Assembly (NCBI RefSeq): GCF_000244895.1
Contig: NZ_CM001441.1
Coordinates: 5,309,417 to 5,373,416 of the forward strand
Source: Desulfosporosinus youngiae DSM 17734
GTDB lineage: Bacteria > Bacillota > Desulfitobacteriia > Desulfitobacteriales > Desulfitobacteriaceae
Direction of reading: 5' to 3'
Length of the DNA stretch: 64,000 nt
Shown here in pieces: positions 8,458-61,937 of this stretch. A program made the translations under genes and the position numbers. How positions within the stretch are numbered: position 1 is the first letter of the stretch; each line of letters starts with the position of its first letter. A model generated the notes under the pieces. The model was not told the DNA's origin and did not search any database. It worked only from the letters and a program-made list of their open reading frames with translations.

Positions 8458-8657
8458 CTTCATTCTCCTTAAATTTAAAGGTATTGTTTAATTTTCCATT
8501 CTTTGTTTTAATTAACAATAAAATAGCAACTTTTTAATTTAACAGGTATCTTGAAGGAAAATGGTTGAAGTTCCACTTGTCATGAAGGAATGATGTTGCA
8601 TTATGTCGAACTATAATGTGTTTAAGTACAACGATTTTGAAAGGTGGCTTTTTGCCG

Positions 8658-11689: not shown

Positions 11690-11877
11690 TTGTCCACATC
11701 CAGTCCTTAATATCAACCGATCTATATTTAAAACATTATTCTAATTCTCTAAAATTACCAAAAATCCTTCTTTTCCTTGCAGGATCGCGTATTTACACGA
11801 TAGTCAATACTTTAACCAAATTCACTAACCGGAATATAATGGAATATGCACTTCTCTGAAAGGCGGTCGATTCAGAC

Positions 11878-12552
11878 GTGGATCAAAACAAGACTCAGCT
11901 CTCCCCTTATCCGCCCTATGGACCTTATCCCCTGAATTCAAACAGCATCAGAGGGTATAAACCTTCATTTTCCAAAAATCAAACTTGCGCCCCTCCTTAC
12001 CTGCCGATTCTTCCCTTGAAACCACCGCTCAAACTCGGCTATTGGGAATTACTGTCTCCCGCTCTTCTCGGGACAGCCGGGGCGCTTTTTTTGAGTTTGT
12101 TTTCCGGGGAAAAATCTGGGGAAGAAGAAGATGATAGCATTGAACCTTTTGGAGGAAGCCTCTTTAAATTAGCTCTTGTAGGATATGGAATCGGGGCCAC
12201 AGTGGCAGTTGCCTTCGCAATATCCGATATCATATCCAATTTTAAGCCCCCCTGCAAAAATCTTGTTTATCCCATTGGCGGGGCAATGGTCTCTGTCATC
12301 TTGCTTTTTGCTTCTGAGTATCTCGTCCTTTACCGATACTTCCCTTCCAGCTTTAAAGGCTACTTGGGGGAAAACATTGTCATCCAATTTATTTCATTCT
12401 TATATCTCAGCGTCACAACCCTAGCCACCGCTGACTTGGGGGATATCTTACCCACAAATACTACCCCCCGTTTGTTGATTGCCACAGAAATAGCATTCAA
12501 CCTGTTTGTCCTGGCAGCCGGAATTCAGCTGCTCCTTGCTCAGAAGGGCTAA
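11878..12552 (+). CDS. Ion-channel-like membrane protein with non-canonical selectivity filter
   Basis: 224 residues with a Pro/Tyr/Asn-rich cytoplasmic N-terminus (about 50 residues) and then about four hydrophobic segments. The last pair carries a two-TM potassium-channel pore pattern: SVTTLATADLGDILPTNTTP followed by a long hydrophobic helix. The threonines before the filter and the GDILPT after it match Ion_trans_2 pores, but TVGYG is replaced by TADLG. It may conduct something other than potassium or be a regulatory paralog. It starts with GTG at 11878 (AAAGGCGG upstream). It stands alone, followed by its own terminator. Confidence 0.6.
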   Translation: MDQNKTQLSPYPPYGPYPLNSNSIRGYKPSFSKNQTCAPPYLPILPLKPPLKLGYWELLSPALLGTAGALFLSLFSGEKSGEEEDDSIEPFGGSLFKLALVGYGIGATVAVAFAISDIISNFKPPCKNLVYPIGGAMVSVILLFASEYLVLYRYFPSSFKGYLGENIVIQFISFLYLSVTTLATADLGDILPTNTTPRLLIATEIAFNLFVLAAGIQLLLAQKG

Positions 12553-39322: not shown

Positions 39323-39613
39323 TTATGCTTCTTTCTTAGCTGAGGGGAGAATCATTTCTACGTCACCATGGGGACGGGGAATGACATGAACGGAGATCAG
39401 TTCTCCAACACGCTGAGCTGCAGCGGCTCCGGCATCGGTGGCCGCTTTTACAGCACCAACATCTCCTCTTACCATAATGGTCACCAGACCACCGCCGACG
39501 AATTCGCGGCCAATCAGCTGAACGTTGGCAGCTTTCACCATGGCGTCTGCCGCTTCTATTGCTCCTACAAGACCTTTGGTTTCAATTAATCCTAAAGCTT
39601 CTGATCTACTCAT
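39323..39613 (-). CDS. BMC-H shell protein (PduA/EutM type)
   Basis: 96-residue single-BMC-domain hexamer subunit: [55 protein letters not shown]. These hexamers tile the flat facets and their pores pass small polar metabolites. It is the last gene of the operon, preceded by TAGGAGG. It is the most canonical of the three single-domain shell proteins (also 54948 and 55266). Confidence 0.95.
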
Positions 39614-39633: not shown

Positions 39634-40275
39634 TTAGTTTGCTAGTTTTATTTTTGAAGTTGAGGCGAGATGCATGGCATTCGCTTCTTCCGTATCAATA
39701 TGAAATTCCAGGACCGAGGTATTATTGGCTCTGATGACGACATTGGAGTAAGTTCCTCCCCGAAGTCCATCTATTTGGATCGTCACTTGTTCCCCATCGG
39801 TTACGCCAAAGTTTTTGGCATCCTCCAGGCTCATATGAATATGGCGCTGCGCTATCAAGAGGCCTTTGCCAAGTATGACACTTCCTTTGGGGCCAATGAG
39901 AGTGATTCCCGGGGTTCCCGGCAGATCTCCCGACAACTTCACCGGCGCGGTTATGCCAAGTTTGAAGCAATCTGCCTGGAGTATTTCTACCTGGGATTCC
40001 CTTCGCACCGGTCCGAGAATGCGAACTTTTTCAATAGCGCCTTTAGGCCCTGCTATGGTCAGGGTTTCCTTGCAGGCATATTGCCCGGGCTGGGATAAAT
40101 CCTTGGCTTTTGTCAATCGGTATCCTGCACCAAACAAGGTTTCCAAATCCGCTTGGGAAAGATGAATATGACGGTTGGATATGCCAACGGGTATGGATTG
40201 GTCGTCCTTTTGCAAATACCCCCCTTCTCTAATTGCTTCCAAGAGAAGCGCTGCTAAATCATCATACTTTCCCAC
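39634..40275 (-). CDS. pduL: Phosphate acyltransferase PduL-type
   Basis: 213 residues; converts acetyl-CoA to acetyl phosphate inside the compartment, recycling CoA. Two repeated zinc-site modules are evident: NRHIHLSQADLETLFG and QRHIHMSLEDAKNFGV, with EFHIDTEEANA as a third histidine region. The first 20 residues (KYDDLAALLLEAIREGG) form an amphipathic helix, the expected encapsulation peptide. It starts with GTG at 40275, close after the aldehyde dehydrogenase stop. Confidence 0.95.
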   Translation of the reverse strand: MGKYDDLAALLLEAIREGGYLQKDDQSIPVGISNRHIHLSQADLETLFGAGYRLTKAKDLSQPGQYACKETLTIAGPKGAIEKVRILGPVRRESQVEILQADCFKLGITAPVKLSGDLPGTPGITLIGPKGSVILGKGLLIAQRHIHMSLEDAKNFGVTDGEQVTIQIDGLRGGTYSNVVIRANNTSVLEFHIDTEEANAMHLASTSKIKLAN

Positions 40276-40277
40276 GG

Positions 40278-41762
40278 TTATTTACCACCTCTTTGTTTGA
40301 GCAGCGCAAGGACTTCATTCACCACGCTCATAATCTCATCGTCACCGACAGCGCTGGGGCTGCCGCTTTGTCCCACACAGGCTGAAGAGACAGAGGGCGT
40401 GTTTTCGGCAACGTCTTTGATTCCATAGGCTATACGCTTGATATTAATCAAGTGCAGGGGAGTTACATTATCGGAAGTTGCGCTTCCGCCCCAAGTACCG
40501 CAGCCCAGGGTAAAGGACGGGGACAGTCCCGTACTTGCCCCCACACCCCCTTGGCTGGAGGCTGTGTTGACTAAAATCCTGAAGACAGGTTTTTCGGCAA
40601 ATTTCATGACCATTTCAGGGTTTTCTGTATGAATGGAAAGGCTGTGCCCGACACCGCCATTATGCAAAAGTTTGATGCACAGATCACAGGCTTCCTGCCA
40701 ATCGTTGACAGTATAGAAGGCTAGTACCGTCGTCAGCTTTTCATAGGACAGGGGATATTCTTCACCCACGCCCTGTTGTTCTCCCAACAGGACTTTTGTT
40801 CCGGGAGGAATGGTTATCCCGGCACTGTCTGAGATGACAGCCGCTGATCTCCCCACCATTTTTGCGTTCATGGCATGACCGCGGACAAATAACTTTTTGG
40901 CCACTTGGTTTGTTTCCCCAGGGGTCATGAAGTATCCGCCCTGGCGTCTGAACTCTTCCATAACCTGGTCACGAATGCATTCTTCAACAATTACGGACTG
41001 CTCAGAAGCACATATGGTGCCATTGTCAAAGGTTTTACTGGCAATGATATTCTTGACCGCTTTCCTAATATCGGCGGATCTTTCAATATAGGCCGGAACA
41101 TTGCCCGGGCCGACACCCAAGGCCGGTTTTCCTGCGCTATAAGCGGCCTTGACCATGGCTGAGCCGCCTGTGGCGATGATCATAGCCACTTCGTCGCATT
41201 TCATCAGTTCATTGGTGGCATTCATTGAAGGCTTTGAGATACAGCCAATGATATTAGCCGGGGCACCGGCAGCTACGGCGGCATCGTTCATCAGTCTGGC
41301 TGCCTGCAAAGTGCACTTCAGGGCCGAAGGGTGGGGGGAGAACACAATCCCGTTCCGGGATTTAATGGCGATAATGGATTTGTAGATGGCCGTTGATGTA
41401 GGATTGGTTGAGGGAATAATCCCCATGAGCACGCCTACCGGTTCGGCAATTTCCATTAGTTTGTTGACCTTGTCATTTTTGACGACTCCGATCGTCTGCA
41501 TGGGTTTGATGAATTCATAGAGTTCTGTGGAAGCAAAACGATTTTTAAAGATTTTATCCTCTACTTTGCCAAACCCTGTTTCTTCCACTGCCAATCTTGC
41601 CAGAGAAGCGGCATTCTCCTCCGCGGCTTTCACCATATTACGGATAATTTTATCAATCTGCTCGGCATTGAATTTAGCCAGCTGAGTTTGAGCCACCTTG
41701 GCCTGACGGGCAAGATTTCTGGTCTCTTGCACGGATTGTAAATCATAATCAAAGTTTTCCAA
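40278..41762 (-). CDS. CoA-acylating aldehyde dehydrogenase, active form
   Basis: 494-residue EutE/PduP-like enzyme, acetaldehyde plus CoA plus NAD to acetyl-CoA. The catalytic cysteine is Cys251 in FDNGTICASEQS, and the NAD region IIATGGSAMVKAAYSAGKP is intact. The C-terminal tail (DDEIMSVVNEVLALLKQRGG) is an amphipathic helix after a flexible linker, the expected encapsulation peptide. It should handle the acetaldehyde made by CutC. A paralog at 53388 is altered at the catalytic position. Confidence 0.95.
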   Translation of the reverse strand: MENFDYDLQSVQETRNLARQAKVAQTQLAKFNAEQIDKIIRNMVKAAEENAASLARLAVEETGFGKVEDKIFKNRFASTELYEFIKPMQTIGVVKNDKVNKLMEIAEPVGVLMGIIPSTNPTSTAIYKSIIAIKSRNGIVFSPHPSALKCTLQAARLMNDAAVAAGAPANIIGCISKPSMNATNELMKCDEVAMIIATGGSAMVKAAYSAGKPALGVGPGNVPAYIERSADIRKAVKNIIASKTFDNGTICASEQSVIVEECIRDQVMEEFRRQGGYFMTPGETNQVAKKLFVRGHAMNAKMVGRSAAVISDSAGITIPPGTKVLLGEQQGVGEEYPLSYEKLTTVLAFYTVNDWQEACDLCIKLLHNGGVGHSLSIHTENPEMVMKFAEKPVFRILVNTASSQGGVGASTGLSPSFTLGCGTWGGSATSDNVTPLHLINIKRIAYGIKDVAENTPSVSSACVGQSGSPSAVGDDEIMSVVNEVLALLKQRGGK

Positions 41763-41815: not shown

Positions 41816-42433
41816 TTACTCAATCTCCCGCTCGTAATATCCCTTGAATTTCTGGATCAGTAAGTCTTTGTTTGCTTTGGAAATGGCTCTCCCTGCGAAG
41901 CCAAGTTCTTTGTAGTCTCTGGCCAGATTTCTAAGCTTTACCACGGAAAAGGATCGCAAGAGGTTCAAGCTCTTGCCAAGGCCGACTTCCTGTACGAGAG
42001 CATCGACTTCCTCTTTGCAGAGTCGCTTCAGCGTTATTTGCTCCAACTTAGTACATTCTTCTTTTATGATCTCGGCTGATTCTGCCTCTCCGGCAGCTTT
42101 GTCACAGTTTCCTAAGGGATCGGTCAGGTTCGGGTTCGGATCAGAGTCTGAAAGAACGCTTGTTTTCTCAAAGACCATGCTTTCAAGGGCAGGATGGGGT
42201 CTGGGAATCACATGCTGAGAAACCAATGAGGAACCCATCCTTGCAGCCGCAGTTACACCTGCCTCCACGGCAGCTTTAACCGCTCCCACATCGCCTGTTA
42301 TGGCAATTGTAACGAGGCCGGCACCGGTCAAGGTCCTCCCCATGAGCTCTACTTGTGCGGTTTTTAGCATGACATCTGCACATTCAATAGCAGGAACGAG
42401 TCCCCGGGTCTCAATTAGTCCAAGAGCCTGCAT
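41816..42433 (-). CDS. BMC-H shell protein with C-terminal SAP/Rho_N-like extension
   Basis: 205 residues. The first 90 form a normal BMC domain ([54 protein letters not shown]). After an acidic linker, the last 65 residues (SFSVVKLRNLARDYKELGFAG and NKDLLIQKFKGYYE) resemble a SAP/Rho_N helix-extended-loop-helix module. This is analogous to PduK or EutK, which also carry C-terminal appendages. The role could be anchoring nucleic acid or cargo; neither can be shown here. Confidence 0.85.
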   Translation of the reverse strand: MQALGLIETRGLVPAIECADVMLKTAQVELMGRTLTGAGLVTIAITGDVGAVKAAVEAGVTAAARMGSSLVSQHVIPRPHPALESMVFEKTSVLSDSDPNPNLTDPLGNCDKAAGEAESAEIIKEECTKLEQITLKRLCKEEVDALVQEVGLGKSLNLLRSFSVVKLRNLARDYKELGFAGRAISKANKDLLIQKFKGYYEREIE

Positions 42434-42444
42434 AGTTTACCCTC

Positions 42445-43098
42445 CTATTGTTGTGCCATGACATAAAAGAATTTGACATAATCCGAAGAACTCCAGGTTA
42501 CTTTAGAACCCTTAGGTACAAAAAGGACATCTCCCTGATGGGCATGAAACGTCTCACCATCGATGGTGATGGACAGGCTTCCTTCGAGAATAATATCAAT
42601 CTCTTCGCAGCATAATTCCCGCTCAAAGCTGGATTTTTCGATGGTCAAAAAGCCTGCGCTCATTTTGGAATCATCTTTGCCGATCACTTCACGATAAGCT
42701 ACATCAGTGCCGGGATCTCCTGTATCAAAGGGTTCGAATTTTACAGTCCTGCCGCGTACAATCTTCAGTCCGGTTTTTGCGCCATAAACCGCACGGAAGG
42801 GGGATTCAGGAGATGGGTTAGGGACACTTGCCAGGCGTCTGCTGCCCAATACCGCTTTTACCACTTGAAGGATTATTTCCGGGTCAAGCTCGTTTTCCTG
42901 GTTCTCTTTCTTCGGCAGTCCGCTTGGTTTAGCCATGTGGCTTCCTTCAGCAGATGAGTCTGTTGTAAATTCCACACCCAGCTCTCTGGCCAGGTCTTTA
43001 GCCGCCATGGTAATGATTGTATTGCAGTCGATGCAGATTCGTTTTTGCCCTTTTTCTGCGGCTGCTTTTACCTCGGTTGCAGAAACAAGTTTTTTCAA
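42445..43098 (-). CDS. eutQ: EutQ-like cupin protein
   Basis: 217 residues: an N-terminal helical segment (KLVSATEVKAAAEKGQKRICID), a linker, then a C-terminal cupin (about 115-215; ELCCEEIDIILEGSLSITIDGETFHAHQGDVLFVPKGSKV). EutQ in Salmonella has acetate kinase activity and binds the shell (family knowledge). Here it would make ATP from the acetyl phosphate produced by PduL. It lies 11 nt upstream of the shell gene and downstream of pduT. Confidence 0.88.
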   Translation of the reverse strand: MKKLVSATEVKAAAEKGQKRICIDCNTIITMAAKDLARELGVEFTTDSSAEGSHMAKPSGLPKKENQENELDPEIILQVVKAVLGSRRLASVPNPSPESPFRAVYGAKTGLKIVRGRTVKFEPFDTGDPGTDVAYREVIGKDDSKMSAGFLTIEKSSFERELCCEEIDIILEGSLSITIDGETFHAHQGDVLFVPKGSKVTWSSSDYVKFFYVMAQQ

Positions 43099-43148: not shown

Positions 43149-43697
43149 TTAGAATAACGAAGCCCACAATCTGTCCGATGGTGAAGGAATTACTTCTGTA
43201 TCAACCAGCAAGCCTTTTTCCATAGCGATGGCTTTCCCGGCTTGAATACCCGCTTCCACAGCGCCGACATCCCCGGTGAAGGTGAAGTAGGCTTTGCCGC
43301 CCAAACCACTGCCTAAACGCAGTTCCAGAGCTTGTACATCCGCTGCTTTGAGTACCGCATCAGCTGAAATAATCATTGATGCCAGGGAAAAACATTCCAT
43401 AATTCCCAGGGCCCCGATTCCATCAGGCATGGTTGTGGCCGTGATGGCTGGGAAAATGCCTTCATGAACATTAGCGAGGATAAAGCTGTCGACCAGATAT
43501 TCGCCTGCTGTTTCAATCCCTACGCTGATCGAGCTTTCTACAGCGGCGACATCTCCTTTGATGATGGCGATATATTTACCGGGACAGACGGGGGTTGCGC
43601 TGACCACTTCCACGTAGGCTGTTTTAAGCATCAAGTCTGTCGCATGGATCCCCCGGGCAATACTCGTAAGCTCAATCATACCTATTGCACTATACAT
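43149..43697 (-). CDS. pduT: BMC-T shell protein with Fe-S pore (PduT type)
   Basis: 182 residues with two fused BMC domains (about 4-88 and 95-180), forming a pseudohexameric trimer. Cys38 in SATPVCPGKY is at the exact position that in PduT supplies one ligand per subunit to a 4Fe-4S cluster in the trimer pore. This suggests electron transfer across the shell, with PduS as partner. It overlaps the end of pduS by 8 nt. Confidence 0.92.
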   Translation of the reverse strand: MYSAIGMIELTSIARGIHATDLMLKTAYVEVVSATPVCPGKYIAIIKGDVAAVESSISVGIETAGEYLVDSFILANVHEGIFPAITATTMPDGIGALGIMECFSLASMIISADAVLKAADVQALELRLGSGLGGKAYFTFTGDVGAVEAGIQAGKAIAMEKGLLVDTEVIPSPSDRLWASLF

Positions 43698-45027
43698 ACG
43701 AACCCACCTTTATCAAAATAGAATGATCCTTAATCTCTGCCACAGTTCCTTCGAAACTGGAGTGAACGGGGGCTCCAAGGCTGTTGTCCGGAATTTTGCC
43801 AATCAGTTGTCCGGCTTTCACCTTCTCGCCGATCTCAACCACCGGGATTGCCGGCGCTCCAATGTGCTGCTGCAGAGCAATCCGGATGTATTCGGGGCGA
43901 AACTCGACCTGAGTCATAGGGGCCGGTTGATCGAAGGCTGATAAGCCAAGTTTCATGACGAGACGTTTACTGGGAATCAGGCGGTAGTCTCTGGCCGGCC
44001 GCGCTTGGAAATCCATCTCCAGGGGCTGATATCTTATCCCTTGTTCCGCCAGCTTACGTTTGTAAAGGCTATTGACCGAGCGGGGATGGAGATTAGCCGG
44101 GCAGGAAAATAATTCGCAGGCATTGCATTCGCAACACAATTGGGCGATTTGCTGGTCCTTGACATCCTCCAAATTGTAGCTCAGAGCGCGCATGACTTTA
44201 TGGGGCTGCATATTGTGCCCCAGGAGATAACGGGGACACAGATCGGTGCACATGCGGCATTGTTCACAGGCAGTCTTGCCGATGACTCTGGCCCGCTCGA
44301 GGCTGACGGATTTTTTCCGGATCAGAAAGTGGTCCTTTTTAAGCAGGACATAGCCTTTGCTTTTTTTGGTTACATACCCATTAACCTGGTTCAGGACAGA
44401 ACCCATCATAGGGCCGCCATCGATCACGGCATAATCATCCGGATTGTCTACTCCGCATTGTCCGATGACCTCTTGGATGGATACGCCTACGGGTACTTTA
44501 AGGGTCATACGCTGAGGAATATCTCCAGCTACGGTAATATAGGTTTCTGTGACAGGCTTTCCGGCTATGGCCCTGCATATATTCAGGGCAGTTTCCGAAT
44601 TGATAACCACACACCCTACTTTAAGAGGAATGGCTGCCTCCGGAACAATTCGTTGGGTCAGTTCATGAACTAAAACCTGTTCGTCCCCAGCGGGATAGAT
44701 ATCCCTAAGCTCCATCACTTCCATATAATCTGTAAGTCCCAAAGCTGAAATTCTTTCCCGCATGAGGCCAATGACCTTTTTATGTTTGCCCTTGATACCC
44801 ATGATGGCTTTGCGGGCTTCAACCTGTCTTCCCGCCGCTTCCAAACCTCTGATGATTTGATCAGGAAACAGCTCCATCAATTGCTGGTCCACGCGAAGCA
44901 GGGGTTCACATTCAGCTCCATTAAGCAATATATACTCGGCTTGAGAGGTTAGTTTAGCATGAGTCGGAAATCCGGCTCCGCCTGCCCCAATCACTCCTGC
45001 CTCCTTGACTAAGTTCAGCAGATCCAA
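43690..45027 (-). CDS. pduS: RnfC-like Fe-S flavoprotein (PduS type)
   Basis: 445 residues: an NADH/FMN-binding RnfC/Nqo1-like part (GVIGAGGAGFPTHAKL, LLNGAECEPLL), an SLBB domain, two 4Fe-4S motifs (CEQCRMCTDLCPRYL and CCECNACELFSCP), and a C-terminal barrel-sandwich hybrid-like region. In B12-dependent systems PduS reduces cobalamin. There is no B12 enzyme here, so a likelier role is moving electrons from NADH through PduT out of the compartment. It starts at TTG 45027 after GGAGGTGGGG. Confidence 0.9.
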   Translation of the reverse strand: MDLLNLVKEAGVIGAGGAGFPTHAKLTSQAEYILLNGAECEPLLRVDQQLMELFPDQIIRGLEAAGRQVEARKAIMGIKGKHKKVIGLMRERISALGLTDYMEVMELRDIYPAGDEQVLVHELTQRIVPEAAIPLKVGCVVINSETALNICRAIAGKPVTETYITVAGDIPQRMTLKVPVGVSIQEVIGQCGVDNPDDYAVIDGGPMMGSVLNQVNGYVTKKSKGYVLLKKDHFLIRKKSVSLERARVIGKTACEQCRMCTDLCPRYLLGHNMQPHKVMRALSYNLEDVKDQQIAQLCCECNACELFSCPANLHPRSVNSLYKRKLAEQGIRYQPLEMDFQARPARDYRLIPSKRLVMKLGLSAFDQPAPMTQVEFRPEYIRIALQQHIGAPAIPVVEIGEKVKAGQLIGKIPDNSLGAPVHSSFEGTVAEIKDHSILIKVGSYV

Positions 45028-45048: not shown

Positions 45049-45309
45049 TTAAAATGTGCAGTCTTCGTCAATAATGCCTACAATGGCTGCATCAATGGGT
45101 ACATCCTCCCGATCCATCATTTTGCGGGCCGAGCTGCCAAGACTGACCAGGACTCGGTCCCCTATGCCAGCACTGATGGTGTCCGCGGCTATGATGAGAC
45201 GACCGGCATCAAGACCGCCCAGGATTTCTACCAACATGAATTTCAGCCCTACAAGGGAATCCGCTTTTCTGGTTGCCCAAATATTATCAATTACTTTTGC
45301 AGCTATCAT
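45049..45309 (-). CDS. eutN: BMC vertex protein (EutN/CcmL family)
   Basis: 86-residue BMC-P pentamer subunit closing the shell vertices: MIAAKVIDNIWATRKADSL, KFMLVEIL, ISAGIGDRVLVSLGSSARKM, AAIVGIIDE. It is the only vertex gene in the locus, and its start overlaps the preceding shell gene by 4 nt. Confidence 0.93.
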   Translation of the reverse strand: MIAAKVIDNIWATRKADSLVGLKFMLVEILGGLDAGRLIIAADTISAGIGDRVLVSLGSSARKMMDREDVPIDAAIVGIIDEDCTF

Positions 45310-45635: not shown

Positions 45636-46478
45636 TTAAAGGATTTCCTGGGTGCAGTTAAGGGCAATACCTAAAGGGGTTACAAACATGGGGTTCTTGG
45701 GTTTATAAGTGGGAAGGTTGGTTTGTTTGGCGATAATATCCTCGATTCCATCCAGACAACAGGTCCCGCCGACCAAATAAATCTCGTTGACCGGGTATTC
45801 AGCTATATGACGGCTGATAATGGATGAGACCTTTTCAATCACCGGTCTTAATACGGGTATTAATTCCCGATGGTTTTTAAAATCACGCTTATATTGATCC
45901 GCATCCTCAAAACTCATTTTATAAGCACCGGAAATAACCAGAGAAAAGTGAGTACCCCCTGTCGGCTCATCGGCAACATAGATGACCTTGCCGTCTTTCA
46001 GAACGGCAGTCCCCGTAGTACCGCCGCCTATATCAACAATCGCACCGTCTTTAATCTTAAGTACGGCATTGGCCGCTGTCGGTTCATCCAATAGGTTGGT
46101 GATTTCGAAACCAGCCCCCTGTACTACATGTTTGATGGCTCCTGAGTCAAGGGTAAAGGTTCCCGGGGGAAGCGCTGCTGCCGCATAGATCAGTTCCGCA
46201 CCCAGTTTTTCTTCAAGTTCTTGTTTTAACTCTCTGACGATGCGTATTGCCCCGATATAGTCCACCACCATCCCATCTTTGACGACACTGGCCAAGCGAT
46301 AGGCTCCGGCAACCGGCTGATAATTCTCATCCAGAACTGCCAGGACAATATAGGCTGTTCCCAAATCAACGCCTGTGTAATAAACCGAGGATTTATGCAA
46401 GATGGGTGTTTTAATAACCTTCTCAAAATCACGAACAAGCTGATCGCAGTATAGAAAAGCTGGATTTACCCTTTCCAT
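45636..46478 (-). CDS. eutJ: EutJ-type Hsp70-fold chaperone
   Basis: 280-residue actin/Hsp70-fold ATPase lacking a substrate-binding domain: YYTGVDLGTAYIVLAVLDEN (phosphate 1), AIVDIGGGTTGTAVLKDG (phosphate 2), NEIYLVGGTCCLDGIEDII (adenosine motif) and FVTPLGIALN. It is thought to help reactivate or assemble compartment enzymes; the exact role is unproven. It overlaps the EutT-like gene by 13 nt. Confidence 0.9.
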   Translation of the reverse strand: MERVNPAFLYCDQLVRDFEKVIKTPILHKSSVYYTGVDLGTAYIVLAVLDENYQPVAGAYRLASVVKDGMVVDYIGAIRIVRELKQELEEKLGAELIYAAAALPPGTFTLDSGAIKHVVQGAGFEITNLLDEPTAANAVLKIKDGAIVDIGGGTTGTAVLKDGKVIYVADEPTGGTHFSLVISGAYKMSFEDADQYKRDFKNHRELIPVLRPVIEKVSSIISRHIAEYPVNEIYLVGGTCCLDGIEDIIAKQTNLPTYKPKNPMFVTPLGIALNCTQEIL

Positions 46479-47137
46479 TCTTTACCCCCCAGACACTTCC
46501 GCATCATCATGCAGAGTATATTAATGATCAGATTGACCTTATCAATCAGGTCCTGTCGTGAGCAAACTTGCTTCTCCCGGTTCCAATAGGCCTCTAAGAT
46601 GGCCGGTTCGACCCCTCGAAGGGAGGCGCGCAGGTAGTTCAACCGAGCAATCCCTTTTCCCTTTTCCAATCCCCCATCAAACTCGCTGATGTCAAGATAG
46701 TTTCCCAAATTATCCGATCGTTCTCTGATTTCTTCTTCCGACCATCCCCAAAATTGAAGATTGTCTGGAGGGATCTGCTCCCGTTCAGCATTTCGCAGGT
46801 TGCGAAAGGATCTGCCCAGGGCCATAACTTCTTCTGACAAAACAACCTCTCCGGAATCTAAAAGTTCAGCGGCAGTCAAAACAAATAGTGCTTCAATTGA
46901 CTCCATTCCGGCCCGCAATCTCAGGCTGCCCCAGCTTGCTCCTGCTTGTGCCTGGTTCAGTACTTCGATGTTGGATTGATTGTCATCACAACACCGATCC
47001 GGTTCCAGCTTGACTCGTTTATCCACAAGAAACTGACGGGCCCCCGGAGTAATCTTTGTATCTGCCCTCAGTATATAGATTGCAAAGGGTTCCCTTTTGT
47101 ATAAATCCCGCAATTCCATTTCCGTGATGAATCTCAT
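46466..47137 (-). CDS. EutT-like protein of the cobalamin adenosyltransferase family
   Basis: 223 residues. The N-terminus RFITEMELRDLYKREP and ADTKITPGARQFLVDKRVKL aligns well with EutT, and the rest is the helical adenosyltransferase-like bundle. The metal-binding region has CC (DRCCDDNQ) but not the full CCxxC of EutT. No B12-dependent enzyme is in the locus, so it may be a relic or have a structural/accessory role. It lies between the eutP- and eutJ-like genes. Confidence 0.7.
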   Translation of the reverse strand: MRFITEMELRDLYKREPFAIYILRADTKITPGARQFLVDKRVKLEPDRCCDDNQSNIEVLNQAQAGASWGSLRLRAGMESIEALFVLTAAELLDSGEVVLSEEVMALGRSFRNLRNAEREQIPPDNLQFWGWSEEEIRERSDNLGNYLDISEFDGGLEKGKGIARLNYLRASLRGVEPAILEAYWNREKQVCSRQDLIDKVNLIINILCMMMRKCLGGKEWKG

Positions 47138-47186: not shown

Positions 47187-47633
47187 TTATTTGAGGTTTG
47201 ACGTTCCAAGTAAATGGTCTTTCAAGGCTCGTACACCGGCTTTGTCTTGCAACGAAATCCTGAAATAAGGTTCTCTAACCCCGGCTTTTTTCAATTGCTG
47301 AATACACACATCGGAATTATTGGGGGCTAAATCACTCTTGGTGATGACTCCAACGACCGGACAGTTAAAGGATTTGGCAAAAGCAGGCGGATAGACTTCA
47401 ATGGGTCTGGATTGATCAATTAATATGAGTACATGGGACGCTGCTTGTGCCGTCGCTATCAGGTATTTATAGGTATAAGTGTTTTCAATATAAGAACCTG
47501 GCGTGTCAATGGCATTCTTTCCATAAACAACATCCTGAGTCTTTTTTAAAGGTCTGACGGAGTCATTTAAGACATTGGCCAAGGTGGATTTTCCTGATTG
47601 GGTGGGTCCGACGACCATAATCCGTTTTCTCAT
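47187..47633 (-). CDS. eutP: EutP/PduV-family small GTPase
   Basis: 148-residue Ras-like protein with a P-loop GPTQSGKSTLA, switch region DTPGSYIENTY and the specificity motif TKSDLA. PduV binds the compartment exterior and EutP has been linked to acetate kinase activity (family knowledge). Its ATG overlaps the end of the EutS-like gene by 4 nt. Confidence 0.9.
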   Translation of the reverse strand: MRKRIMVVGPTQSGKSTLANVLNDSVRPLKKTQDVVYGKNAIDTPGSYIENTYTYKYLIATAQAASHVLILIDQSRPIEVYPPAFAKSFNCPVVGVITKSDLAPNNSDVCIQQLKKAGVREPYFRISLQDKAGVRALKDHLLGTSNLK

Positions 47634-47998
47634 GTGCGTGTAATCTTGGCCGGCGTAAAGCCTAACAATTTTTCCAAGGTTTCATTAATAGCGATCATAG
47701 CTGCCTCAACACTGGCTACATCACCGGATATGACCAGGGACCCTGTAAAGCGATCCAGAAAACCGATCTCGACATCAGACGTCTTGGTGGCAATATCTGC
47801 AGCAATAATTGCTGTCTCACCCGGAGTTAGGGTTGAAATTCCCAGCGCTCCTGTTTCTTCAATTCCCAGACGTTCATAGATGTCCCGGGCGGGAGAAGCG
47901 ATGATGTGAGCCAGAGTGACTTGTTTGCCAGGCACAGATTCCTGGATTATTCGCTTTCTGTCAAATTCATCGGCTACGCTCATAAAATCCCTCCGCAC
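47630..47998 (-). CDS. eutS: EutS/PduU-type permuted shell protein
   Basis: 122 residues: an N-terminal beta-hairpin segment (RIIQESVPGKQVTLAHIIASP) that caps the hexamer pore with a small barrel, then the permuted BMC core (ALGISTLTPGETAIIAADIATK, GFLDRFTGSLVISGDVASVEAAM). This is the classical EutS/PduU layout. It is directly downstream of cutD. Confidence 0.93.
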   Translation of the reverse strand: MRRDFMSVADEFDRKRIIQESVPGKQVTLAHIIASPARDIYERLGIEETGALGISTLTPGETAIIAADIATKTSDVEIGFLDRFTGSLVISGDVASVEAAMIAINETLEKLLGFTPAKITRT

Positions 47999-48026: not shown

Positions 48027-49007
48027 CTAATGCTTAATAACTTTGACCGCTAAGTTATAGCCCTTTACAAACTCTTCAATTTTATCTAACTCGTCTTCCC
48101 TGAAGCTTAAATCCTCTTCAATGGGGTACTTCATGTCCAATTGCTTGTATTTGTTGATGCCTAATTTGTGATAGGGAAGCAAATCGATGCCTTGAAAGTT
48201 TTTATAACCTTTAAAGGTTTGCAGAAACTCCAGAGTTCTGCCAAGGGTGTCTTGACTGGCGTTTAAGCCCCTGAGGAGAGGCATTCTGACCTTGACCGCA
48301 AACCCCCGCCGGATGAGTTCGGTCAGGTTGTCCAGAATACGTTCATTGGGTACACCAGTGAGTTCATAATGCCGCTCAGGATCAATATGCTTAATGTCAT
48401 ACAGAAATAAATCGGTAAACTGAGCGATCCTAAGCAGGGAGTCCAGTTTTACATACCCGCTGGTTTCTATGGCCGTGTGAATTCCTAAACGCTGACATTC
48501 CGTCAGCAGGTTGACAGCGAATTCCGGCTGGGCTGTAACTTCCCCTCCCCCAAGAGTGACTCCCCCGCCTGAACTAAGGTAGAAAAGGGTATCTTGTTGG
48601 ATGATTTCCAGGACATCCGTTATGGTTTTATCGGAGCCAACGATGGATATAGCTTGTTTAGGACACACGGTTTCGCATTTTCGGCAACCTATACAGTCCA
48701 GACTTCTGTTTACTTTGTGACTGGATCTTGTAAGATCCCTTTGCTGCTGTTCTTCTTGATCCGGGAAATAATGTATATGAACGGGACAGACAGAAAGACA
48801 GTTACCACAGTCAACGCACAAATCTTCTTTGTACATGACCTGATAGTTTCTTACAAGTCCCTCGGGATTCGAACACCACTTGCATCTTAGAGGACACCCC
48901 TTGAAGAAGATTAATGTGCGTATGCCCGGTCCATCATAGATGGAATATTTCTGGACATTGAAGATTCTCGCTTTTCGTTCTAAGATGCTGCCGCTTTCTG
49001 TACTCAT
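48027..49007 (-). CDS. cutD: Glycyl-radical enzyme activase (CutD type)
   Basis: 326-residue radical-SAM activase that installs the glycyl radical on CutC. It has the SAM cluster motif GPGIRTLIFFKGCPLRCKWC (CxxxCxxC), two added ferredoxin clusters (CVDCGNCLSVCPVH and CIGCRKCETVCPKQ), the SAM-binding SGGGVTLGGGE and the YDIKH block. It is separated from cutC by the transporter, the small regulator and repeat copy C. Its ribosome site (GGATGGGGAC) is inside the 3' copy of a direct repeat. Confidence 0.94.
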   Translation of the reverse strand: MSTESGSILERKARIFNVQKYSIYDGPGIRTLIFFKGCPLRCKWCSNPEGLVRNYQVMYKEDLCVDCGNCLSVCPVHIHYFPDQEEQQQRDLTRSSHKVNRSLDCIGCRKCETVCPKQAISIVGSDKTITDVLEIIQQDTLFYLSSGGGVTLGGGEVTAQPEFAVNLLTECQRLGIHTAIETSGYVKLDSLLRIAQFTDLFLYDIKHIDPERHYELTGVPNERILDNLTELIRRGFAVKVRMPLLRGLNASQDTLGRTLEFLQTFKGYKNFQGIDLLPYHKLGINKYKQLDMKYPIEEDLSFREDELDKIEEFVKGYNLAVKVIKH

Positions 49008-49413: not shown

Positions 49414-49504
49414 TTCTGCACACATAATGTCCCCATCCAGCTTTATTTTTGACTCCAACGTTTTGGCAGATATTTTTTAAGAAGTCTCCTGCCTTGATCG
49501 TTAA
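49414..49504 (+). repeat. Direct repeat flanking repeat copy C, regulator side
   Basis: Partner of 48996-49087. On the minus strand it contains the end of the intact regulator gene, the sequence GGATGGGGACATTATG and a few codons resembling the start of cutD (M-C-A-E-S against M-S-T-E-S), which then run into a stop. Confidence 0.85.
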
Positions 49505-49733
49505 CCGAGTAGTAGATGATCAATTCTCCCTGAGGGCCAAGTGCCACTTCATTATCGTCAACGATGGCGTTTGCTTTCATATTAAGCAGGTGATACATCA
49601 CAACCTTTTTTGTGAACTGTCGTTCCGTGCCATACTCAGGTTCCAGGGCCTGCATAATCTCAGCAGCGCAGGCTTTATCAACCGTGGAAAGATAATGCAG
49701 TATCCTAAAGCGCAGGGGTAAAGTATCAGCCAT
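49443..49733 (-). CDS. Small winged-helix DNA-binding protein
   Basis: 96 residues from ATG 49733 (GGCGGGGTGG upstream): ADTLPLRFRILHYLSTVDKACAAEIMQAL is a winged-helix opening, followed by FTKKVVMYHLLNMKANAIVDD (recognition region) and a wing GELIIYYSVNDQGRRLL. This resembles ArsR/PadR-type small regulators, with no sensor domain. It lies between the transporter and cutD, so it may regulate the microcompartment operon from within it. Confidence 0.75.
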   Translation of the reverse strand: MADTLPLRFRILHYLSTVDKACAAEIMQALEPEYGTERQFTKKVVMYHLLNMKANAIVDDNEVALGPQGELIIYYSVNDQGRRLLKKYLPKRWSQK

Positions 49734-49735
49734 GA

Positions 49736-50746
49736 TTATGCCACCCCGCCTTTTTTGAAAAATTCCTTGGGGTTGATAGCTACAAAGGTAGCGCCAATTA
49801 GTACCAAGCCACTGCCTATGAGCAAATTCCGGGTAAGGGGCGAGTTCAGGAAAACGACTGAGAAGATAACTCCCCACATGACATAGGTTCCATTCAGAGC
49901 CATCCCTTTGGCGACTCCTATGGTCGAGTTGGCTCTATACCAGGACAGGTAAGATGTCCCAGCCACTAAGGCAGCAATGGCAAAGGCCCCCAGGGTTCCG
50001 GGCAGAGTCACAACTTGGGAAACCACGGCCCAGCCGCCGACGAATGGAAGAATGAAAATGGCCAGAAAAAGACTGGAGGTCAGTTCACGGATATTGATGG
50101 CAATTTTGGGGTCAATCATGGACATGCCGAACACGGCCAAGACAGCTTCTGCCCCCCATCCCAAAGCAGCTAACGCCGCGAAGAGCAGGCCAAGATAAAA
50201 GGTTTCGCTGTTCCCCCCTTCGGGCGGCACATAGGATATAACTATGGCACCGGTAACCGAGAGAAGCATACCCACCCAAACCCGGGGCACAATTTGCTGC
50301 TTAAGGAAAATCCAAGAAAGCAGAGCGCCCACAATCGGATATAAGGCGGTTATTGTTAAAGCATAAGCAGGTCCTGCCATTGAGATTCCCAGCAGGTATC
50401 CGCCATTAGCAACAGGTCCGCCGAACAAAGCCGCTACGCAAACCATCAGCCCGGGAAAGGTTTTAAGACTGCGGAGGATTTCCTTTAAACGCCCGGCTCC
50501 GACGTTATATAGGAGCAGCCAGAGGCCTGCCAAAGAATCATTAATACAGGCTGCGGCCAGCGGGATAGCAAATAGAGCCGCATTTTCACTCATGACAGGC
50601 ACCAGACTTAAAGCCAGCCCTAAGAGTACACTGTTCAAACCCCAGGCACAGCCGCTGAAAAGACCTATGAAGACGCCTTTTCTGGCAAACTTGGCATTCA
50701 TTTTTTCCTTCATTATAATGGCTGTTTGATTTCCAGATATGCTCAT
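49736..50746 (-). CDS. DMT-superfamily (EamA-type) transporter
   Basis: 336 residues with ten predicted helices in two EamA repeats (FIGLFSGCAWGLNSVLLGL and LLFAALAALGWGAEAVL). Typical ends are YPIVGALLSWIFLKQQI and GSGLVLIGATFVAI. It lies immediately downstream of cutC, so it is probably the uptake system for choline or an exporter of a product such as trimethylamine; the sequence alone cannot decide. The start at 50746 has AAGGAGGG. Confidence 0.85.
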   Translation of the reverse strand: MSISGNQTAIIMKEKMNAKFARKGVFIGLFSGCAWGLNSVLLGLALSLVPVMSENAALFAIPLAAACINDSLAGLWLLLYNVGAGRLKEILRSLKTFPGLMVCVAALFGGPVANGGYLLGISMAGPAYALTITALYPIVGALLSWIFLKQQIVPRVWVGMLLSVTGAIVISYVPPEGGNSETFYLGLLFAALAALGWGAEAVLAVFGMSMIDPKIAINIRELTSSLFLAIFILPFVGGWAVVSQVVTLPGTLGAFAIAALVAGTSYLSWYRANSTIGVAKGMALNGTYVMWGVIFSVVFLNSPLTRNLLIGSGLVLIGATFVAINPKEFFKKGGVA

Positions 50747-50824: not shown

Positions 50825-53368
50825 TTAAAAATGCTCCAATACGGTTCTGCTGATAATTTCATCCTGTACTTCTTTGCACAGCTCTACGAAGTAAGCACTA
50901 TAGCCAGCCACACGAATGATTAAATCCCGGTATTTATCAGGTTCGATTTGAGCTTTCTTCAAAACTTCGTTGTCAACATAACTGAACTGCATTTGACCGT
51001 TGCCGAGAATAGACGCTGTTCTAAGTAAGGTGATCAGGCCATTTTCTCCCTCCGGAGTTTCCAGAATGCCGCGCAACAATTTGAAGTTGTGGACCATACC
51101 TATATTCATTGACTCGTTGCTGAGCTTACTGACGGATTTAATGATGGCGGTAGGTCCCAGCTTATCCGCGCCCTGAGTCGGACTGATTCCGTCTGACAGA
51201 GGAGTCCAGGCCAACCGCCCATTAGCCGTCGCGCCGGTAATTTCCCCGATGGGCGTGTTGTTGGAAATAGAAAGCGTGCCATGAGTGAAATGGGAATGGA
51301 GCATTTTAAAGGTATTGTGAACCCGTTCGGTCCAGATAATGAGATCTGAAGCGATTTCATCCACATAGTCGTCGTCATTCCCGTATTTCGGTGCATTCAG
51401 GCAGTCCGTCCGAAGGGCTTCATACCCTTCAAAATTCGCATCCAAGGCATCCCGGATTTGCTTTAGAGTGTATTTCTTGTCCTCAAAGACTAATTTCTTA
51501 ATGGCGGCCATCGAATCCGCATAGGTTCCCAAGCCGGAGAAGATCAGTCCCGGGCCGCAATTGATCAGAGCGCCGCCGTTTGTAACATCCGTGCCTTTTT
51601 CCATGCACCCTTCTACCAGCAGGGACATTAAGGGTTTAGGGACAAGGTCCCGATGAATCCGCTGGCTGACGATGGTTCCGATGGCAGACAAGCGGATGAT
51701 ATGCTCAAGTTGTTTTTTGCAGGCAGCGTCAAATTCTTCATAGGTCTTAATATTGTCAAGCTCCCCCGTGTCAATCCCTTCCAAAGTGCCATGCCATTTC
51801 ATCATCCCGCGATTCAGGACAAATTCTATAGCGATGGGCCATTGGGTATAACCGGTGGATGTCCACTGATAGATTCTGCCGGATTTTTGCGGTTCCACAC
51901 AGCCCATGAGGCAATAATCCCGTGCATCTTCGATACCGAATCCCTTGGCCAGCATCATTTTAATATGAGTATCATCAAAGTGACATGCCGGGAATCCCAG
52001 CCCCGCTTTGACAACATCCACGATTTTCTTGAGATACTGCTGGGGAGATTTATTATGAATCCGGCAGGCCAGAGAGGGTTGATACATCTTGGTAAAACGA
52101 ACGGCGTCCATGATCAGATAAGTCAGTTCATTGGTGGCATCCCCGCCGGTTCGCTTCTGTCCGCCAACGGTCAAGTTAATAAACGGCTGATACCCGGCAA
52201 AATACTTCGCTCCCAGTTCGCTGGACAACCACATAACTTCTGAGCATTTAATAATAAAGCTGCTTATTAATTCAAAGGCTTCCAGTTTATTTATTCTGCC
52301 TGCTTCCATGTCAGCTTTGAACATGGGATAAATGTATTGATCCAACCGTCCCAGAGAAATACCCGTCTGGTTTTCTTCCACGACAAACAGGGATTCCAGT
52401 GTCCAGATGGACTGGAGCGCTTCCTGGAAGGTGCGGGGAGGATTGGCCGGCACATAAGTCAGACAATCGGAAATTTTGTAGAGTTCTTTCTGCCGGGCTG
52501 AATCATGCTCTCTCTCGGCCAGCTCTCTTGCATAATCCGAAAGCCTTTGGGCATAAGCCAAAATTCCATCACAAGTCTCGATCTCCGCTTTATAAAAGTA
52601 AATCTTATCCAGGTCCTCCGGATTTTCCATGGACAGTTTGCTCAATCTATCGACGGCTTCCTGTCTAGCCCCCTTAATGCCCTTTTTAATCAGGATCACA
52701 TCATAGCCCGGGCAGGTGTCGCCGCCGCCATTGACCTGATGGTAAGAAAGGTCACTGACAAAGGATTCGCCTGAAAATGACCACACGCCGGCTTCCTCAT
52801 ATTGGGTCTGACAAACCTCATCCACACTTTTGCCTTCCCAAAAGGGGAAGATCTCTTCCCGCAAAATCCGCTTGTCTTCCTCACTGATTTGAAAAGGGTC
52901 CTGCTGCCGGGTTGACATAGTATCCAGTTCGTCCCGAATCCATCTCCAGGCAATATCCGGAGACACGGCGCCGGCTCTGGGTTTCCCGCAGGGATGCCCT
53001 ACAATCAATTCATCCTTTTGAATCACCAATGGGGCGGTCTCACAGGCCTTTCTGAAGCACTTGGCCCTGAGGAGAATTTTAGGCAGCCCCGGATTTTCTT
53101 TGGTTACTTGGGTGAAGGCTTGGGCCCGATAAATGCTGACACTTGGTTTAACCTTTAAATAGGCTGCCCTTAGTCGTTCTAAGCGCGGTGTAAGTCCGGT
53201 GATTTCCCCTTCAAATGCAGGCGATTTCGTCACACTGTTCGAAGAGGGACTGTTTGCGGACAACTCCTTGGAAATTCCCTGAAACAGCTTCATGATGGCA
53301 GCCGTTTCCTCCGGGGATAAGTGTTTTGTTGCCTCCGCAAATCTATTGGAAAACTCTCTGATATCCAC
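50825..53368 (-). CDS. cutC: Choline trimethylamine-lyase, type I
   Basis: 847-residue glycyl radical enzyme, choline to trimethylamine plus acetaldehyde. Residues recalled for D. alaskensis CutC (Y208, D216, F395, C489, E491, T502, Y506, G821) are all present at +1: Tyr209, Asp217 ([10 protein letters not shown]), Phe396, Cys490 and Glu492 ([10 protein letters not shown]), Thr503 and Tyr507 ([10 protein letters not shown]), and radical Gly822 (RVAGYSAYF). The first 40 residues ([20 protein letters not shown]...) form a helix before a Ser-rich linker, a likely encapsulation peptide. There is no long type II extension. It starts with GTG at 53368 behind GGGAGGA. Confidence 0.96.
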
Positions 53369-53387: not shown

Positions 53388-54896
53388 TTAATAATCTCCG
53401 TACCACTTAAGCTGCTTCATTAATTCCTGGAGTAACTCTTTCAGATCATGTGTACTTTCAATGGAATTCCGACTGGTCGGGCCAGGAGCCTTACTTATTT
53501 CCGCAGTTTCAACCGCCGGTACACCAGCGGTAATATCCTCTATCTGCCGCACACCGTAACCAACTTTTCGTATATTAATCAAGTTCATGGGGGATACATT
53601 ATCCGAGGTTAACCCGCCCCCTGCAGCGCCGCACCCCAAAGTCAAGGCCGGGAACAAATTCGTTGTGGCTCCTATACCCCCTAATGCAGCCGGAGTATTC
53701 ACCAACACTCGGGATACCGGCTTCTTTAAAGCGAACTCCCGAATCACTTCTTCATTCTTGGAGTGAATGACCAAGGTATGTCCCCGCCCCTCATTAATCA
53801 GCAACTCTATGCACTTTTCACAAGCATTCATCCAGTCTTTTTCCACGTAAAATGCCAGAACCGGGCAAAGTTTCTCTCTGGAATAGGGATGATTTGGAGA
53901 GACATATTTTTGTTCGGAAATCAATACTTTTGTATCATCCGGGACAGCCAGGCCGCTTCGCCATGCCAACTCCAGGGCGGATTTACCGACAATTTCCGGA
54001 TTTAAGCTGTCATCAGAACGGAAGAATAGCTTACTAAGCCGGGCTGATTCCTGTTCGGACATAAAATAAGCCCCATTTTCCCTAAGCTCCCGTCTTACTT
54101 CAGCGGCGATACAGCTCTCTGCAACAATGGATTGTTCCGAAGCAGGGACAATCCCGTTATCGAAGGTCCGGCTGAAAATAATATCTTCTACGGCCTTTTT
54201 TATGTCGGCCGATCGCTCAATAAAGGCCGGTCCGTTACCCGGGCCGCCATAAATGGTTGGTTTACCGGATGTATAGGCCGCCCTGACCATCTTTGGCACA
54301 CCGGTAATCAGGATCAGGGATGTGTCTTGATGGTTCATCAAGGCAACCGTACCGTCAACAGCCAGGGTACGCAAATAGCCGATGGCACCGCTTGGTAATC
54401 CGCTTTCCTCCGCAGCCTGGATTAGGATATCAAGGGTCTTGGAGATCGTCTTTTTGGCCTTGGGATGAGGAGAAAAGACAATCCCATTTCCGGATTTTAC
54501 GGCGAGCAGTGCTTTATAGATTGTCGTAGATGCTGGGTTGGTGGAAGGAGGCAAGCCCGCGATCACACCAACAGGAACCCCAATATCCATGGTCTTGTTA
54601 ACTTTATCATCATTGATAATACCGACAACGTTCATGTTCTTGATTTTCTTATAGAGAAAATCACCGGCAAAGATATTCTTAACAAGCTTGTCCTGCCATT
54701 TGCCAAACCCTGTTTCTTCATGGGACAAAAGAGCAAGCTCTTTGGCAGATTTGCAGGCCGCTTCAGCCATATGCCGGACAATTTTATCCAGCTTTTCCTG
54801 AGGAAAAGCTGCCAGTATCTTTTGAGCCTCGCGCGCATTTTCCACGAGAATTCGAGCCTCTTGGACGGAGAGCAGATCATTATCGATTCTATTCAT
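53388..54896 (-). CDS. CoA-acylating aldehyde dehydrogenase paralog lacking catalytic Cys
   Basis: 502 residues, colinear with the enzyme at 40278 over its whole length (same spacing to residue 251) and with a C-terminal amphipathic helix ([20 protein letters not shown]). The active-site block reads [12 protein letters not shown]: Pro251 replaces the nucleophilic Cys. The nucleotide-binding stretch also changes from ATGGSAMVKA to [10 protein letters not shown]. The frame is intact with a strong AAAGGGGGG site at ATG 54896, so it is not decaying. It may be a structural or regulatory pseudoenzyme in the compartment. Confidence 0.9.
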
Positions 54897-54947
54897 GCTC
54901 AATTCCCCCCTTTCCACCCGCAGAATCAATCAACTAACCTTGGGTCA

Positions 54948-55238
54948 TTACCAGTCAAGAACGTATTTAGCAATAATCTTTTCTACTTCCGCATGCGGCC
55001 TGGCAATAACAAGGGAGCTATACACCCGGCCCACTTTGCCTGCTTCTATAACACCTGCCTCGACAGCCGCTGTTACCGCTCCTACATCCCCGCGAACAAC
55101 AACGGAAACCAGACCGGATGCCACGTTTTCATAACCAACCAATTCGACATCCGCAGCTTTACACATGGCATCCGCAGCTTCCAGCACTGAAACCAGACTA
55201 TAGGTTTCTATGAATCCTAAGGCACCATTTTTGTTCAC
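54948..55238 (-). CDS. BMC-H shell protein
   Basis: 96 residues from GTG 55238 (AAAGGGGA 6 nt upstream): [58 protein letters not shown] second start at 55256 would add six residues but lacks a site. It differs from the other hexamers at the segment following the BMC pore loop, so it may set a different pore property. Confidence 0.92.
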   Translation of the reverse strand: MNKNGALGFIETYSLVSVLEAADAMCKAADVELVGYENVASGLVSVVVRGDVGAVTAAVEAGVIEAGKVGRVYSSLVIARPHAEVEKIIAKYVLDW

Positions 55239-55265
55239 ACGGACTCCCCTTTCCACTAATCAATA

Positions 55266-55565
55266 TCAGTCCGCATCAATGTCATGTCTTGAAACAATTT
55301 TTCCTACTCTGCTAATGGGACGCGGAATGACATGGGAGGCGGTCATCTCACCAATAGCGGCTGCTGCTGCTGCGCCTTTTTCCACAGCCGACCTTACCGC
55401 AGCCACATCTCCTTTAACCATGACCGTGACAAGCCCTGACCCCATATTTTCGTAAGCAACAAGAACAACATCAGCGGCTTTACACATGACATCCGCTGCC
55501 TGAATAGCAGGAACCATTCCTCTTGTTTCAATAAGACCTAAGGCCTCTTCTCCGGAGTATTTCAT
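55266..55565 (-). CDS. BMC-H shell protein, first gene of the operon
   Basis: 99 residues: [61 protein letters not shown]. It is the first gene of the long minus-strand operon, with AAGAGGAGTTG before the ATG. It is very similar in layout to the next gene, consistent with tandem duplication. Confidence 0.93.
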   Translation of the reverse strand: MKYSGEEALGLIETRGMVPAIQAADVMCKAADVVLVAYENMGSGLVTVMVKGDVAAVRSAVEKGAAAAAAIGEMTASHVIPRPISRVGKIVSRHDIDAD

Positions 55566-61697: not shown

Positions 61698-61937
61698 GTT
61701 ATTCACCCTTTCTTGTGATTTAATCTGAGATTCTTTGATTCAACTACTTATTGTCCTGAAATAACCATCAAAACCTCCTATAAATTAATCCACAGGAGCC
61801 AGTACTATTGAAACGATAATTAACTTTAATTAGACTGTCCAAGGGCTTGGGGTCATATTATGGCACCCCACTTGTAAAAATTAATAAATCGAAATAAGAG
61901 CGTTAACTTTTCTCCCTTCATAAATTTATGTTTTAAT

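Follow-up and report, generated by a model that had tools for sequence, protein, structure and literature searches.

The window, that is, the whole stretch of 64,000 nucleotides analysed here from Desulfosporosinus youngiae, a host whose genome is a single contig of 5.66 Mb, contains a choline microcompartment locus of the GRM1 type (Table 1). This type was assigned from family profile matches, with several genes scoring below the cut-off of their nearest named family. A GRM1-type cutC and cutD share the BMC locus with the gene of interest, a Cys-less aldehyde dehydrogenase (AldDH) homolog hereafter called the window protein, and so does a second, Cys-bearing AldDH. Two BMC-H genes, the Cys-less AldDH and cutC follow one another in that order, with 19 nt from the stop codon of the AldDH to the listed cutC start; the second AldDH gene is on the same strand, at a distance of 11.6 kb from the first.

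Table 1. Features of the GRM1 locus, positions being those of the window; conservation counts refer to the 171 aligned AldDH rows described in the text.
Feature	Position	Strand	Basis
BMC-H shell gene, EutM-like	39323..39613	(-)	profile match
PduL-type phosphotransacylase	39634..40275	(-)	profile match
Cys-bearing acetylating AldDH, active-type paralog, TTG start	40278..41762	(-)	TIGR02518 740.8 bits; motif
BMC-H with ~100-aa C-terminal extension	41816..42433	(-)	profile match
EutQ-like, below family cut-off	42445..43098	(-)	profile match
BMC-T, PduT-like, below family cut-off	43149..43697	(-)	profile match
PduS/RnfC-like Fe-S protein	43690..45027	(-)	profile match; name PduS from order and size
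BMC-P, CcmL/EutN-like	45049..45309	(-)	profile match
EutJ	45636..46478	(-)	profile match
EutT-like, weak match	46466..47137	(-)	34.9 vs 226 bits; PF01923 20.7 vs 24
EutP/PduV-like, below cut-off	47187..47633	(-)	profile match
EutS-type BMC-H	47630..47998	(-)	profile match
cutD, CutC activase	48027..49007	(-)	TIGR04395 523.3 bits
cutC, choline TMA-lyase, 847 aa, GRM1 type without long N-terminal extension	50825..53368	(-)	TIGR04394 1558.5 bits
Cys-less AldDH homolog (pseudo-AldDH), 502 aa, ATG start	53388..54896	(-)	translation; TIGR02518; PF00171
C-terminal amphipathic helix of encapsulation-peptide type, residues 482-500 (predicted)	53397..53453	(-)	model; hydrophobic moment
Low-confidence linker, residues 458-481	53454..53525	(-)	AlphaFold2 pLDDT < 50
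Codon 251, CCT (Pro), catalytic Cys position	54144..54146	(-)	alignment and codon listing
Residues 216-217, Tyr-Gly	54246..54251	(-)	Tyr216 in 74/75 Cys-less rows
Residues 198-204, TGVPKMV	54285..54305	(-)	Val200 in 71/75 Cys-less rows; Gly in 93/96 Cys rows
Shine-Dalgarno-like stretch AAAGGGGGG	54905..54913	(-)	8 nt before ATG 54896, read from sequence
BMC-H shell gene, directly upstream of Cys-less AldDH	54948..55256	(-)	profile match
BMC-H shell gene	55266..55565	(-)	profile match

The best NCBIfam family of the window protein is TIGR02518, that of acetylating acetaldehyde dehydrogenases (661.4 bits, for a cut-off of 620.1), and this score alone would have it annotated as such an enzyme. 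It shares 47% identity with the paralog. The catalytic Cys of the family falls at residue 251 in both proteins, within FDNGTICASEQ in the paralog, and the window protein is not filed as an active TIGR02518 enzyme because it carries Pro there. An earlier note on this DNA had indeed claimed a Cys-to-Pro change at this residue together with an altered cofactor loop, and both were found, the loop passing from TGGSAMV in the paralog to TGVPKMV. Its description of an intact frame behind a good ribosome-binding site was likewise correct, the translation being free of internal stops and AAAGGGGGG being suitably placed before the ATG. It had also named a sequencing error at 54151-54160 as a reason to doubt the change; the Pro call stands, and the codon itself lies just outside that interval. 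A single-base error could not mask a Cys, as passing from CCT to TGT or TGC takes at least two changes, and the eight near relatives whose codon 251 was printed all have Ser (TCA). Such an error would moreover leave our conclusion unchanged, since the relatives are Cys-less too. Other catalytic residues are present in the window protein, namely Asn120 (oxyanion), His373 (base) and Glu341 (CoA-activating), all mapped from PMC4762007 through position and motif rather than by superposition.

The predicted structure (AlphaFold2, mean pLDDT 78.1, pTM 0.65, with pLDDT below 50 at residues 217-220 and 245-250 in addition to the linker) matches the fold of acetylating AldDHs. The best solved relative is the Listeria monocytogenes AldDH 3k9d (55% identity over 452 columns), which we take to be an EutE and which, unlike the window protein, has an unaltered loop and a Cys. 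The more distant Cphy1178 (PDB 4c3s; C269A mutant 5dbv) has the same fold at 30% identity; its N138, P161, H162, E357 and H387 columns are matched in the window protein, while its C269 column holds Pro. In Cphy1178, C269A abolishes activity, and the adenosine and phosphate contacts occupy the columns of Pro143 and His144 of the window protein (PMC4762007). By our own assignment, following the split given in the available text of PMC8217296, Cphy1178 is of the N-terminal encapsulation type and the window protein of the C-terminal one. A cargo helix had been claimed earlier and is borne out as a prediction: a terminal amphipathic helix behind a flexible linker, as in BMC cargo, is predicted here, and the hydrophobic moment of the tail exceeds that of more than 99% of 200 shuffles. 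By the same test both AldDHs of the window have helix tails. Of the rows tested, 61 of 74 Cys-less and 57 of 95 Cys-bearing ones have a tail whose moment is above that of at least 95% of shuffles; two rows with tails shorter than 20 residues, one Cys-less and one Cys-bearing, were set aside. As a prediction, the structure model confirms the fold and the tail only.

Occurrence and selection across CutC loci

The survey looked for CutC (TIGR04394) in overlapping sets of genomes. Matches came from 14 of 398 genomes in the window's phylum, 6 of 297 in that of genome G401, 19 of 45 in the window's family, 6 of 246 and 45 of 225 in two orders, and 7 of 12 selected genomes. It yielded 93 distinct CutC places, the window included, all of which were examined; two (in G956 and G1479) scored below the family cut-off, and the window's family and Clostridiales are over-represented in the sample. 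AldDH genes were picked by position alone, an AldDH being scored when it lay within 1.5 kb upstream of CutC on the same strand. Among the 86 places with a short CutC and shell genes, 80 have an AldDH of the Cys-less type there, with Ser at the Cys column in 65, Pro in 11 and Ala in 3, one gene being split and six places having none. None of the 79 intact copies carries Cys, and since these genes were chosen by position, the loss of Cys next to short cutC genes is not due to chance. The copy was found at none of the four places with a short CutC and no visible shell genes (one of them cut by a contig end). By contrast, the three long, GRM2-type CutC genes all have a Cys-bearing AldDH upstream, and eight Morganellaceae loci found by another route, two of them in the genomes of L119 and L120, each combine a long CutC with one Cys-bearing AldDH.

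Within the window's family, the copy (at least 71% identity) was present in 19 of 19 genomes with CutC and in 1 of 26 without, the latter a genome 79% complete. In one of the 19 (G1115) the match spans only residues 220-496; its locus, L101, has the Cys-less AldDH split into two overlapping frames (10424-11903, minus strand) in a GRM1 stretch of otherwise ordinary appearance.

The six shell-bearing places without the copy are L086, L087, L116, L118, L134 and L176. L086 (9066-12321) and L087 (9072-12333) are complete GRM1 loci, which retain shell genes, CutC, CutD and the downstream Cys-bearing AldDH and lack the Cys-less AldDH between BMC-H and cutC; the protein is therefore not indispensable everywhere, and these two loci offer natural absences of it. 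A search of their genomes (G056 and G095) at E 1e-60 gave Cys-bearing AldDHs only and no Cys-less copy elsewhere. A second AldDH of G056, 51% identical, was considered as a relocated copy and rejected, as it has Cys. L134 concerns a second CutC-like gene, with a Cys-bearing AldDH 1605 bases upstream. Such second CutC-like genes, 62-66% identical to the window CutC, were seen in L134 (17070-19481), L116 (7518-10100), L114 and L118, with no AldDH within 1.5 kb upstream.

Purifying selection is apparent in the window copy, for which dN/dS ranges from 0.055 to 0.114 against 30 relative sequences (some being the same gene under two identifiers), compared with 0.031 to 0.066 for the active paralog against six sequences, four of them cut by stretch ends; these Nei-Gojobori values are approximate, dS being at least 0.8. 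Across the 54 loci with both copies, the Cys-less AldDH, with a mean pairwise identity of 0.671 and 72 invariant columns out of 476, is somewhat less conserved than the active one, with 0.695 and 122. A decaying duplicate, or a Pro produced by sequencing error, could be suspected from the Ser (not Pro) of the near relatives on the tree, the split gene of L101 and the two loci without the gene. The intact frame, the low dN/dS and the presence of the copy in all 19 CutC-bearing genomes of the family (one split) make this extremely improbable, and we reject a pseudogene or error on the selection and survey data.

Ancestry and altered sites of the Cys-less lineage

From 199 distinct full-length rows, those more than 93% identical to a kept row were dropped, and the remaining 171 (75 Cys-less, 96 Cys-bearing) served for column counts and for a tree built by a quick method with the two catalytic-loop motifs masked. 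A more careful tree used 64 of them, ten named long-branch rows being omitted on purpose and others thinned. On the 171-row tree, Cys-less and Cys-bearing rows are separated by one change on a single branch (support 100), with no Cys row nested inside the Cys-less clade; the 64-row tree recovers this clade at 100/100 and places the window protein among its Cys-less counterparts from other GRM1 loci. The lineage spans Bacillota and Thermodesulfobacteriota. We took Cys as the ancestral state from the superfamily and not from rooting. The four states Cys, Ser, Pro and Ala require at least eight changes on the 171-row tree, hence at least seven among Ser, Pro and Ala, and the Pro copy of the window adjoins a Ser relative, L006 (support 96).

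Such interchange indicates that no nucleophile is needed at this position, and it bears on the idea of a different chemistry, using a Ser nucleophile or none. Ser does stand at the Cys column in 61 of the 75 non-redundant Cys-less rows, and the acyl-transfer His and Glu are mostly kept. Nevertheless, Ser, Pro and Ala replaced one another repeatedly after the loss of Cys, the window protein itself carries Pro and the oxyanion Asn is often lost, so that we regard another chemistry as improbable and do not favour Ser as a substitute nucleophile. The codons at 251 in Cys-less rows are TCN, CCN and GCN, and in 27 of the 75 (TCT or TCC) they are one base away from Cys.

The remainder of the protein is largely maintained, as 93 columns are conserved at 97% or more in Cys rows and 67 of these stay at 90% or above in the Cys-less ones. 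Pro143 is kept in 68/75, His144 in 71/75, Glu341 in 72/75 and His373 in 71/75, which would be in line with a non-reacting binder of NAD or CoA that buffers a private cofactor pool. This cofactor role is in our view unlikely: Gly200 has become Val and Gly or Ser216 has become Tyr in nearly all rows (Table 1), altering the dinucleotide loop and the neighbouring strand, Asn120, kept in 26/75 rows including that of the window, is Ser in 48/75, and the kept residues could simply mirror the fold. Derived and nearly fixed in the lineage are, besides Val200 and Tyr216, I16, E19, L36, S58, L167, Y174 and L175. In Cys rows, column 216 holds Ser in the seven GRM2 and L034 rows and Gly in the other 89; Gly217 is common to the Cys-less lineage and to the GRM2 AldDH, CutF, while Tyr216 and Val200 are special to the former. 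We had considered that Tyr216 fills the general-base site of ALDH2, and have withdrawn this, as in ALDH2 numbering the site corresponds by position to residue 217, which is Gly in CutF too.

The earlier note had used the active paralog as comparator, which is slightly misleading for descent, since the nearest Cys-bearing kin of the Cys-less lineage are the GRM2 AldDHs (CutF) and L034, at 59-62% identity to the window protein. Grouping of the Cys-less clade with the GRM2 AldDHs has moderate support (97/72), which rises to 100/99 when L034 is added. The L034 AldDH, near the Cys-less lineage, bears Cys and a long repetitive tail; by eye, its locus (4258-9984) is a BMC locus of another type, with an AldDH, an Fe-ADH-like ORF and a different glycyl-radical-enzyme-like ORF. 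The active GRM1 AldDHs occupy two places in the tree, one in Bacillota and one in Thermodesulfobacteriota, and forcing 14 of them, a set named after the tree had been seen, into one clade costs 118 log-likelihood units and is rejected (AU test). Loci of the GRM2 type vary too, because in L170 (a clostridial order, long CutC, GRM2-like) the CutC-adjacent AldDH falls in yet another clade.

Gene order agrees with this kinship, the window protein and CutF of Klebsiella, E. coli, Proteus and Providencia occupying the same slot, with BMC-H genes on one side and cutC, directly or preceded by an alcohol dehydrogenase (ADH) gene, on the other. The annotated E. coli order is three BMC genes, AldDH, EutN/CcmL, alcohol dehydrogenase, cutC and cutD; in Providencia, ORFs read by eye give BMC-H genes, AldDH, BMC-P, ADH and cutC. 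In the GRM1 locus L007, an Fe-ADH sits between the Cys-less AldDH and cutC. A C-terminal helix, predicted in the window protein, is common to both, the E. coli CutF ending in the peptide quoted for Klebsiella CutF (PMC6971018). They differ in that CutF has Cys, Gly200 and Ser216 where the window protein has Pro251, Val200 and Tyr216, in that CutF is the only AldDH in the eight Morganellaceae CutC stretches whereas the window locus has two, and in that the CutC partner of CutF has a long N-terminal extension, absent from GRM1 CutC. The window gene thus has neither the Cys nor the extended CutC that mark a GRM2 CutF.

Possible roles of the retained copy

The observation at the centre of this work has been published, and ours is a rediscovery, as Axen 2014 (PMC4207490) described GRM1 loci with two AldDHs, one of which always has Ser or Pro in place of Cys, and Sutter 2021 (PMC8217296) a putatively inactive second AldDH copy in GRM1A and GRM1B; the window locus, with its two AldDHs beside CutC, shows no essential difference. 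A scaffold or regulator role for the Cys-less AldDH was already proposed (Axen 2014, PMC4207490), while the available text of PMC6325248 and PMC8667426 does not discuss this copy. Added here are the single lineage, the Ala variants, the near-fixed Tyr216 and Val200, the relatedness to GRM2 CutF and the slot common to both, the active AldDHs that do not form one clade and the two loci without the Cys-less copy.

Lineage-wide loss of the nucleophile, purifying selection, linkage to cutC and the conserved helix tail together argue, at the level of sequence, that the copy is very probably non-catalytic and retained. To this extent the earlier note is well supported; the roles it listed, scaffold, cofactor handling and cargo partner, stand as candidates at the level of sequence. 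The explanation that we rank best, at about even odds, is that the putatively inactive second AldDH of GRM1 is kept as a structural core protein. An AldDH fold would have lost its nucleophile once and then been maintained in Bacillota and Thermodesulfobacteriota as part of their GRM1 loci. It would still oligomerise like its relatives, so that several helix tails per oligomer may form a multivalent hub, linking CutC, either by direct binding or by way of helix-helix contacts, to the shell and other cargo, while the second, Cys-bearing AldDH would oxidise acetaldehyde. Encapsulation peptides do cause condensation in vitro (PMC12339742), and the induction by choline of the lyase-adjacent AldDH gene in Clostridium ljungdahlii, given below, also counts in favour of this explanation. 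The lower conservation of the Cys-less copy relative to the active one counts against this explanation.

For CutF of Klebsiella GRM2, co-migration with shells requires full-length CutC; CutF also moves full-length CutC into larger assemblies, and the contact depends on the N-terminal extension of CutC, of about 335 residues (PMC6971018). The Cys-less copy is perhaps a CutC adaptor derived from CutF. From a CutF-like ancestor, the enzyme task would have passed to another AldDH and the assembly task stayed. In its fullest form, which we put forward tentatively and consider rather doubtful, a CutF-type ancestor in GRM1 lost its catalysis in a single event, with changes to its pocket (Tyr216, Val200), and turned into an adaptor devoted to CutC assembly, the chemistry being recruited from AldDHs of more than one origin; in GRM2, CutF would have kept the chemistry, and CutC would have grown a noncatalytic extension that meets it. 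Against a structural adaptor of CutC stand the two loci without the copy, the GRM1 CutC without extension, the moderate support of the GRM2 sister grouping and the exception of L170. Distances count against it too, since over the 54 loci the Cys-less copy tracks the active AldDH (partial r 0.52) more than CutC (0.24), and a mirror-tree case for CutC as the partner is not favoured.

These same distances suit a regulatory or filler subunit, which would form mixed oligomers with the Cys-bearing AldDH and tune its activity, its stability or its dose in the lumen. The 47% identity between the paralogs and the helix tails on both are in line with this, as is the induction of both AldDHs by choline in Clostridium ljungdahlii: the AldDH gene next to that of the choline lyase, labelled simply as an aldehyde dehydrogenase in the available text, rose by log2 7.2 +/- 0.9, and the other AldDH by log2 5.6 (PMC12016505). 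One surveyed locus, L128, has the gene order, in size and strand, of that choline locus, and Pro at the Cys column. Among papers open without subscription, which our search covered, this induction is the only published experiment found on the Cys-less copy. However, the Cys-less copy forms one lineage and the active GRM1 AldDHs tested do not, so that no single active partner is conserved, and the gene adjoins cutC, far from the active AldDH. We therefore hold a regulatory subunit to be unlikely, a little less so than the cofactor role.

The copy is of broader interest, since little is known of how metabolosome cores are put together around glycyl radical enzymes. With a conserved Cys-less AldDH tied to cutC and its Cys-bearing GRM2 cousin as a natural control, the scaffold proposal of 2014 becomes testable. 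Also worth testing are the evolutionary tie between the Cys-less copy and GRM2 CutF and the origin of the active enzyme from more than one source.

Other genes of the locus

The extension of about 100 residues of the BMC-H at 41816-42433 has no Pfam match, and its end gives the impression of a SAP/HeH-type motif; a similar BMC-H occurs in L086. Between cutC and cutD (49443-50746) lie an EamA-type transporter and a 144-aa ORF without a Pfam match, and a similar-looking transporter ORF was seen by eye in L086, upstream of the BMC-H genes and cutC. A BCCT-family transporter near the locus (60132-61706) is a candidate importer of choline or betaine. Finally, the EutT/cobalamin adenosyltransferase homolog at 46466-47137, in a compartment that is B12-independent, is possibly another repurposed enzyme.
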